NCBI GenBank assembly: GCA_023362775.1
Contig: JALMGJ010000005.1
Location: 71,664,963-71,728,962, forward strand
Direction of reading: 5' to 3'
Length of the DNA: 64,000 nt
Source of the DNA: Charina bottae
Lineage: Eukaryota; Chordata; Lepidosauria; Squamata; Charinaidae
The notes beneath the pieces were generated by a model. The model was not told the DNA's origin, searched no databases, and was given only the letters and a program-made list of their open reading frames with translations. This document shows, one piece after another, positions 23,581 to 26,001 of this stretch. A program made the translations under genes and the position numbers. Numbering within the stretch: the stretch's first letter is position 1; the number at the start of each line of letters is the position of its first letter.

Positions 23581-23654
23581 CATCAACAATCTATGCTGTT
23601 GAATGGTTGTTGTGGGTTTTCCGGGCTGTGTGGCCGTGTTCTGGCAGTTTTGTT

Positions 23655-23697
23655 TCCTAACGTTTCGCCAGTCGCTGTGGCTGGCATCTTCAGAGGA
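23655..23697 (-). ncRNA. Hammerhead ribozyme motif in Penelope-like repeat (complete core)
   Basis: Reading the minus strand: stem I 5' side tcct, core ctgaaga, stem II tgccag-loop-ctggcg, core gaa, a two-pair stem III (acgt), cleavage-site base t at 23659, then agga, which pairs with tcct. This satisfies the CUGANGA / GAA / UH hammerhead consensus. Stem III is only two base pairs with no loop, as reported for Penelope-like and amphibian satellite hammerheads that work as dimers. Activity is not shown by sequence alone. Confidence 0.75.
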
Positions 23698-23936
23698 CAG
23701 GAGCACAGCTAGAAGATTCTGTCTGTGCCCAAGTGGAGGGTGTGTGTTCCTGCTGGTGTTTATAACTGCTGAGAAGGTGTGTGTCTTCTGTGGGTCATTT
23801 ACAAGAGATTAGGAGAGGGTTTATTGTGGTGATTAGAGGGTGTGGTGCTGTCCTGTGTGGGATTAGCACATCTATTGTGTGAGCAGGAACACACCCTCCA
23901 CTTGGGCACAGACAGAATCTTCTAGCTGTGCTCCTG

Positions 23937-23975
23937 TCCTCTGAAGATGCCAGCCACAGTGACTGGCGAAACTGC
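23937..23975 (+). ncRNA. Degenerate hammerhead motif (plus copy)
   Basis: The plus arm keeps tcct, ctgaaga and the perfect stem II (gccag/ctggc) followed by gaaac. Compared with the minus arm it lacks the segment between two gaaac repeats, which includes the cleavage site and the 3' half of stem I. It should therefore be unable to self-cleave. Confidence 0.65.
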
Positions 23976-24296
23976 CAGAACACGGCCACACAGCCTGGAA
24001 AACCCACAACAACCATCGGATTCCGGCCGTGAAAGCCTTCGACTATACATTATGCTGTTGAAGTTTGTGAAGACAGTTCTGTCCATATATAAAACCCATT
24101 CGTTTGAATTCAGAAATGACCACTTAGTTACAAGTCAGTAATCAACTGTTCCCTATTCTGTGGGTTTCCCATAGGTATGTATTATTTGGAAACAGAATTC
24201 ATTGTTTTTATTTTATTTACATGAATTTATATAGTGTCCAAACTCGGTGTGGTTTACGATAAGATTAAAACCTATATAAAAATATGAACACCATAT

Positions 24297-24352: not shown

Positions 24353-24420
<68 letters not shown>
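24297..24420 (+). mobile_element. Short L2-type 3' end with (GATA)n tail
   Basis: Contains only the terminal stem-loop (24311-24343, ccgcccagag...gatgggcgg) followed by tgataaatca and about 15 GATA units to 24412, then ataatagataaaata. It is inserted into the older antisense L2 copy. The tail matches the ATAG microsatellite seeding known from snake LINEs. Confidence 0.88.
24353..24412 (+). repeat. (GATA)n microsatellite
   Basis: About 15 uninterrupted gata units directly abutting the L2 3' end. Confidence 0.97.
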
Positions 24421-25742
24421 AAATAATCATAGTGACAGAATTAAAAATCAGTCACATAATGCCAGCTGAAACAAAGCTGTTTTCATGGCTCTTTAGAAAG
24501 CAAACGAGGGTTCCTGGCATACCTCAGTGAGTAAGGTTATAGCGAGGGGCCCACTGTAGAGAAGGATTGAATGGGTCCATATATTGTTTGATCTCATACA
24601 AGTAGGTTCATAAGCATTCCCTGTCTGCTTGCTTGCATGCATGGGCAAGGCAGATTATCTTTGGATGGTATCCTGGAATCAATCCAAATAGAGCTTTATA
24701 GGTCAAAGGCAAGACTTGGAAATCTATTGGCACCTAATGCAATGACTAGAGAATTTATACTCTCACTGTGCAGTGACATCTCTCACTTGTTAATATGTAG
24801 GCAATCACATTTTATGTAAACTGCAGTTTCTGGATTGTACAGTATTCAGAGGCAGCCCCATATAGAGCATGTTACAGAAATCTAAGCGTGTGGTGATGAG
24901 TCATTAAGTTTCAGTGACTGTCACTGAAACCTAATGGCCCATTTAAAGCCACAACTGGTGCAACAGCCCAAGATAGATTTAAGTAAAGGCCCCCCTGGCC
25001 ACCACTTCCACCTACTGTTCCCCCAGGACCCCCAAATTATGGACTACTTCCTTCTGAGAGAGGGCGATTCTGCCATTAGTGAGCCTGTGTTGGGGGGGAG
25101 GGGCAAACAATCCATCTTACTGGAATTCAGCTAATCTTGTTTTGGCCCATCCAAATACTATGTTAGGATTTTCACAGCATTATCTGGCATGAAATCTACA
25201 GTGATCGTACGTAGTTGAATATGATCAGCATACGGCCGGTACCTTACCCCAAACTGATGGATGACTTCTCCCAACCAGTGTGAGTTAAATAGATGATAAA
25301 TAGCAGTGGGAGTAGACTTGAGCCCTATAGCACTCTACATTGGAGCAGTCACAGACAACTACTTATCCCGTACTACAATTGACTGAAATTGCCCACTGAA
25401 GTAGAAACAGAACCCTATAAAACCATGTCCTGACGCCCAACTCCCACAGATGGTCTAGTAAGATACTATGATAATGGTATGAAAAGCTGCCGAGAGGTGC
25501 AAAAGGACCAGGAGCAGCAAACTTCCACCCTGAAGGTCCAATGCTGGTCATCTGTAGAGCAACCAGTGTTGTCTTTGTCCTGTGTCTGGACCTGAATTCA
25601 GACTGGAAGGGATCCTGATAATCTTTTTCATCTAGAACCTTCTGTGACTGACAGCTGTGATCCATAGCAGAATTTATCAGTTGCAACGTGTATTAGAAGT
25701 AAAGTTGTCACCACTTAGCATTCAAAGTTTTATACAATAAGA

Positions 25743-26001
25743 CAGATCATTCCAAACTGTGTGTCGGGACACGTTAGTATGTCGGCTGCAGTGTCTGGGT
25801 GTGTCGTGGCTGCTGCTGCCTCTGAGCCCTGCCAGGATTCCTCGCAGGTCCTAGTGCCTGCCTTGTGCCTGGCTGCCTCCAAACCTGCTGTGATTCCACG
25901 CAGGTCCTAGTGCCTGCCTTGTGCCCTGCTGTAAGAGTGTGTCGCGAAATGATGCATGTCTAAAAAGTGTGTCACCAACATGAAAAGTTTGGAAAGCTCT
26001 G
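25743..26001 (+). mobile_element. Non-autonomous hAT element (copy 2)
   Basis: 259 bases with degenerate left end cagatcattccaaact and right end agtttggaaagctctg. Flanking 8-mers caataaga and cattaaga match at 7 of 8. The internal sequence (gtgtgtcgggacacgttagt, gctgctgctgcc) is closely similar to copy 3. Confidence 0.88.

Follow-up and report, generated by a model that had tools for sequence, protein, structure and literature searches.

The window, meaning the whole 64,000-nucleotide stretch analysed here, carries a predicted minimal type I hammerhead core on its minus strand, placed in one of two inverted copies of a Penelope-like element (PLE) repeat (Table 1). Read from 23697 to 23655, the minus strand gives TCCT-CTGAAGA-T-GCCAG-(9 nt)-CTGGC-GAA-AC-GT-T-AGGA. 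An earlier note on this DNA had listed all hammerhead elements in this order, and the letters bear the list out; the single extra T between CTGAAGA and stem II had been overlooked. The site has the CUGANGA and GAA core around stem II, a cleavage base H, a stem I of 4 bp, a stem II of 5 bp and a vestigial helix III, which is the make-up of a minimal PLE hammerhead. Stem III, a 2-bp palindrome that has no loop, cannot be closed within a monomer; one published view, reportedly that of Lunse et al. in 2017, is that minimal hammerheads are active mainly as dimers. The extra U is presumably the one that follows A9 in hammerhead numbering, and a viroid hammerhead with an extra base in its core, reportedly at the same place, is on record. 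The reading of the site as a minimal hammerhead with almost no stem III is backed by the sequence, and also by the published account of PLE hammerheads in the accessible text of PMC11167929. Self-cleavage of the family RNA is a prediction from these letters.

Table 1. Features of the hammerhead core and of the surrounding insertion, in window coordinates.
Feature	Position	Strand	Remarks
Left target site duplication	23592..23603	.	TATGCTGTTGAA; exact 12-nt repeat; last base may belong to element
Short arm	23603..23883	-	tailless pseudo-LTR copy; 3' end at proximal start site (acaacaaccat)
Minimal type I hammerhead core	23655..23697	-	predicted cut between 23659 and 23658
Stem I, 5' strand	23697-23694	-	TCCT
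Core	23693-23687	-	CTGAAGA
ATG at start of stem II	23685..23687	-	position published for the ORF start in Anolis Poseidon (accessible text of PMC11167929)
Extra T	23686	-	between CTGAAGA and stem II
Stem II, 5' strand	23685-23681	-	GCCAG, then 9-nt loop
Stem II, 3' strand	23671-23667	-	CTGGC
Core	23666-23664	-	GAA
Stem III	23663-23660	-	AC/GT, no loop between
Cleavage base	23659	-	T
Stem I, 3' strand	23658-23655	-	AGGA
Long arm	23882..24051	+	5'-truncated pseudo-LTR copy, opposite orientation; ends with tail
Second hammerhead core	23941..23972	+	cleavage site and stem I 3' strand lost in 15-nt deletion
Tail	24017..24050	+	absent from left arm
Right target site duplication	24051..24062	.	TATGCTGTTGAA; exact 12-nt repeat

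The two arms are complementary over inverted stretches of 84 nt (99%) and 48 nt (98%), in keeping with the earlier claim of two head-to-head copies. The site is very probably a single insertion of a Penelope/Poseidon-type PLE, composed of two 5'-truncated, head-to-head pseudo-LTRs within a 12-bp target duplication, with cDNAs primed from both strands. The source element of both copies would have had an RNA that carried the minimal hammerhead around its start codon. By analogy with the published element, the tail may correspond to the segment that separates two start sites of reverse transcription.

Longer copies of the repeat carry its coding sequence. Nineteen of the 21 copies homologous to the 5' end of the window arm share further upstream sequence with others, over 54 nt to 1361 nt (the latter being the limit of the loci). 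In loci L019 and L026, frames upstream of the pseudo-LTR encode a reverse transcriptase (RT) and then a GIY-YIG-like stretch; the core follows at the pseudo-LTR/ORF start, with the ATG at stem II. The upstream frame of L026 matches RVT_1 (Pfam, E=1.1e-10), and since RVT_1 is a general RT model, the PLE type of the RT rests on its relatives. There are 875 of these at E<=0.001. The best among the matches listed, 70% identical along the full query, is from Anolis sagrei, and the sixth-listed, from the gecko Eublepharis, is 79% identical across 72% of the query; these relatives point to a squamate host. GIY-YIG domain PF01541 is carried by two of the best 120 of the 875. The GIY-YIG-like stretch after the RT, VYRIPCSCGQVYIG, was recognised by eye, Pfam giving T5orf172 at 0.16 and 0.3, under its cut-off.

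The repeat is read as a PLE pseudo-LTR because of this upstream RT frame and the RT relatives, two of the best 120 having PF01541. Head-to-head pseudo-LTRs, an optional tail and a target duplication, which are PLE traits, are present as well, and the Penelope-like assignment made from the window letters agrees with all of these features. The pseudo-LTR structure proposed at the same time is likewise supported by the longer copies, in which the RT frame precedes the pseudo-LTR. Copies of two subfamilies occur across the genome, one with the core loop CAGC[G/T]A and the other with CAGATG. The second (CAGATG) makes up most places listed in the genome-wide search for one-sided tails described below.

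A descriptor that allowed the extra base and a 2-bp stem III matched a single site on the two strands of the 64-kb window, that at 23655-23697, and gave 0.01 matches on average in window-sized Markov-1 random sequence (200 runs). Because this descriptor had been modelled on the site itself, recurrence provides a more stringent test. The core pattern CTGAAGATGCCNGCCACNGNNNCNGGCGAAACGT has 3617 exact matches (1788 + 1829 by strand) in the 1.80-Gb genome that contains the window (G000), to which all genome-wide counts refer, and the pattern read backwards has none; the core pattern had no match in viral_contigs. Position-wise conservation of the core among the arms is uninformative, because most loci were chosen by that core.

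Rfam reports no hammerhead at the site at the gathering cut-off, and none at E<=10 in stretches of 801 and 76 bases, where the only matches lie far under their families' gathering scores. The earlier note had proposed this covariance check and had named a missing match as evidence against its claim, and formally that is the outcome: the site does not score over the cut-off of the canonical type I hammerhead (RF00163). Rfam Hammerhead_1 lists at least 26 other matches in the same genome, 24 of them over the cut-off (74 of 171,717 candidates scored). The eight fetched loci (L001-L008) also have a short stem III by eye, so shortness of stem III is not by itself enough to account for the lack of a match at the window site, to which the extra U and the loops may contribute. 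These canonical loci share with the window core the type I order of parts, and differ from it in being scored by Rfam, in their other sequence and, by eye, in a longer stem I and in having no extra base after CUGANGA. No match between them and the PLE arms was found at E<=1e-3, and kinship between the families was rejected.

Folded alone, the 43 nt of the core have a lowest-energy structure of -10.6 kcal/mol, made up of stems I and II plus two additional pairs; in one of these the extra U is joined to the G of GAA. The hammerhead pairs by themselves account for -9.2 kcal/mol. With the downstream part up to the tail added, the same hammerhead-type fold is obtained, and this pairing of the extra U recurs in it. 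An 80-nt piece (23 nt upstream and 14 nt downstream) has a lowest-energy fold of -18.4 kcal/mol that is not a hammerhead. Since the fold depends on the flanks included, a hammerhead is possible and not clearly preferred. In the minus-strand transcript of the locus, 32 of the 43 core bases pair with the opposite arm, and the plus-strand copy lacks, after GAAAC, 15 nt starting GTTAGGA, a deletion that removed its cleavage site. Because the transcript would fold arm on arm and the second core is without a cleavage site, no cleavage of the locus's own RNA is expected. The ancestral RNA may have been open to cleavage in dimeric form or when the protein of the element was present; the decayed locus at 23655-23697 probably cannot cleave.

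The closest described system is Poseidon of Anolis carolinensis (PAc), which, in the accessible text of PMC11167929, has a minimal hammerhead (stem I, stem II and loop II) with the start codon at stem II. Its protein cuts and extends both target strands, its RNA is cleaved only when that protein is added, and uncut RNA is the dominant in vitro template (PMC11167929, same text). Reverse transcription begins internally, at two neighbouring positions of the RNA, and the segment that these enclose is the tail; bulk in vitro data revealed no start-site difference between the strands (PMC11167929, as far as accessible). PAc and the window element are both PLEs with an ORF start at stem II, an AC-rich start-site region and a tail; the accessible text of PMC11167929 places the PAc cut 26 bp after the start codon, and that of the window element is predicted after base 29 counted from the A. 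Among 88 arms, a sample biased toward arms that run through the core because loci were chosen by the core, all 5' ends lie more than 4 nt away from the ribozyme cut, which agrees with the published view of uncut RNA as the dominant in vitro template.

The core could instead have arisen as a by-product of constraint on coding and of RNA binding close to where the ORF begins (ATGCCAGCC..., AC-rich start-site region), its hammerhead likeness being coincidental or no longer functional. The core region does overlap the open frame after the ATG, and the missing Rfam match, the non-hammerhead fold of the 80-nt piece and the lack of arms starting at the cut (0/88) all point the same way. So do two results in the accessible text of PMC11167929: ribozyme mutants left in vitro insertion unchanged, and RNA-seq showed no ends at the cut. 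Against this, all core letters stand in order and two helices are present, and the related Anolis core cleaves with its protein and loses this activity in single C3 and G8 mutants (PMC11167929, accessible text). A mere by-product is therefore considered unlikely, and the preferred reading of the site is that of a minimal PLE hammerhead.

Minimal PLE hammerheads are already known. Those of Cervera and de la Pena (2014) and Lunse et al. (2017) are type I, lack helix III, lie in pseudo-LTRs, occur in thousands per genome and have been proposed to act as dimers (accessible parts of PMC6155905, PMC7761336 and PMC7229834). As helix-III-less hammerheads of PLE pseudo-LTRs have been published, the window ribozyme is another occurrence of a known type, and it adds a large family to the published class. 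By description the published families are from another genome and another family, although, as far as the accessible parts of these sources tell, the window family may be identical with one of them.

The arrangement of the copies was followed in 86 loci (L009-L094), some of them overlapping, with neighbours defined as copies within 1.6 kb. All 46 rows of neighbouring copies (45 distinct pairs) are head to head. Rows L066 and L067, one pair interrupted by the ends of the loci (with a long left and a short right arm), were excluded from later counts, which left 44 pairs. A similarity search using a short-ended query had yielded 11 of them, the first 55 of 100 listed core-pattern places 27, and places 56-100, picked for two cores close together, 6. 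One plus-minus neighbour pair in the core-pattern list, 3.2 kb apart, was left out of the sample. A target duplication of at least 11 nt, measured as the longest shared word, flanks 33 of the 44 pairs, with a modal length of 12; in the mismatched-flank control the shared word reached at most 8 nt in 44. The 11 pairs without a duplication of 11 nt or more count against the single-insertion reading. A single 31-nt spacing class holds 263 pairs.

In every one of the 44 pairs, one arm is tailed and the other tailless. Long arms end at +31 to +37 past ACAACAACC and short arms at -4 to +8, the arm at -4 (L060) having been classed as incomplete in an earlier arm mapping. The tail is on the left in 25 pairs and on the right in 19. 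Neither kind of arm is systematically longer (short-ended longer in 20 pairs, long-ended in 19, tie in 5), and no pair of two short arms occurs among the 44 sampled. Single copies (n=38), which came in part from the short-ended query and some of which may have a partner beyond the 1.5 kb covered, comprise 26 short, 11 long and 1 other.

Genome-wide, one 31-nt spacing class contains 774 + 781 = 1555 matches with the exact tail word on one side and a pseudo-LTR end on the other, where the partner is known only to be without the exact tail word and may not be short. In the corresponding spacing window, 4 pairs carry the exact tail word on each side. Given that 36 of 58 tailed arms retain an unaltered tail word, independent and equal choice of the two starts would be expected to give about 240 doubly tailed pairs. 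Seventeen spacing-class pairs lie inside the listed one-sided-tail stretch: 7 have an exact tail, in each case on a single side, against 10.5 expected with a tail if all 17 were one-tailed. Two of the remaining ten pairs, L075 and L093, do have one tail, but its word is altered. The count of 7 against 10.5 leaves room for some two-short pairs.

The four pairs that break the one-tail rule (G000:C1:19917465, C110:120034770, C214:3230561 and C223:31731157) all look like the second subfamily, and two of them have disturbed inner sequence.

Such a near-strict rule suggests that each insertion uses two different start sites, one for either strand of the target. No statement of it was found in the literature listings covered, which lacked the key subscription papers, nor in the accessible parts of PMC11167929, PMC6155905, PMC3846280, PMC7761336, PMC7229834, PMC12910113 and PMC5718144. 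A tail on one of two inverted pseudo-LTRs is itself already known from rotifers: in Penelope of Adineta vaga, inverted pseudo-LTRs are mostly head to head, with target duplications of 8-10 bp in the described cases, and a 31-bp tail on one of them is called optional (PMC3846280, accessible text). In contrast to that optional tail, one tail per pair is near-strict here, and the arms of a pair can differ in source. The pairs also differ from the bulk in vitro data on PAc (PMC11167929, accessible text), which gave no strand difference in start sites, whereas each examined pair has one of each. Bulk assays would hide a complementary choice, because either strand can take either role.

The sources of the arms were compared within and between pairs. 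Arms differ on average by 3.6% within a pair against 4.4% between pairs in subfamily A (32 pairs), and by 3.5% against 4.6% in subfamily B (12 pairs). At three diagnostic columns, transversion differences within pairs amount to 7/74 (9.5%), compared with 42.5% under shuffled pairing and a background of 58/4614. As the within-pair differences are far under those of shuffled pairing, the arms are usually of common source. Five of the 32 subfamily-A pairs differ at diagnostic columns (L064 at all three), which is above background and indicates that some pairs arose from two templates or from two pseudo-LTRs of one template.

These data bear on the self-priming model, in which one cDNA folds back and primes itself, a route put forward for rotifer PLEs because palindromes occur where the inverted copies join (PMC3846280, accessible text). 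Arms of a pair are indeed more alike than random arms. Nevertheless, self-priming alone predicts the same end on both arms, and the ends differ in 44/44 pairs; the differing sources of some arms further disfavour it, at least as the sole route. Fold-back of a single cDNA is accordingly thought quite improbable as the origin of the inverted pairs. Two independent insertions or a rearrangement after insertion, for which only the high copy number and the occurrence of chance neighbours might speak, are scarcely credible given the uniform head-to-head order of neighbour rows, the target duplications shared outside both arms in 33/44 pairs and the 263 pairs of one spacing class; for the window pair, two independent insertions are ruled out by the common 12-nt target duplication.

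In the two-cDNA reaction favoured here, the endonuclease would make a staggered double-strand cut in the target, and both target 3' ends would prime reverse transcription of the element RNA inward. One cDNA would start at the distal site, giving the tail, and the other at the proximal site about 34 nt upstream, and the two cDNAs would be joined at their inner ends. In molecular terms, one RNA, or an asymmetric protein dimer, may offer each start site once. The general proposal that PLE integration proceeds by two cDNAs with complementary start sites, almost never the same site twice and often on RNA of one source, is held with even confidence for and against.

Mobilisation of PLEs is poorly understood, and the rule of one long and one short arm is a more useful result than the ribozyme. 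It speaks against the view that inverted pairs arise solely by simple fold-back self-priming, and the thousands of copies with their simple signature make a model of two-strand priming testable.

Several further observations were made. The core of L001, CTGATGAGTCCCAAATAGGATGAAAC, belongs to a second hammerhead family that is scored by Rfam. In L008 an antisense core lies beside a sense-like core, and in L001 a 145-nt imperfect palindrome lies nearby, an arrangement that would fit mobilisation of such hammerhead elements by PLEs. L006 and L007 (matches 1501-1543) are on different contigs, one of 18.9 kb, and have identical letters in 180 bases around the core, perhaps as an assembly duplicate. 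Within the window, a (GATA)n simple repeat occupies 24353-24421, about 300 bases downstream of the insertion, and two 48-nt direct copies, 88% alike with starts 56 bases apart, lie at 25828-25875 and 25884-25931.
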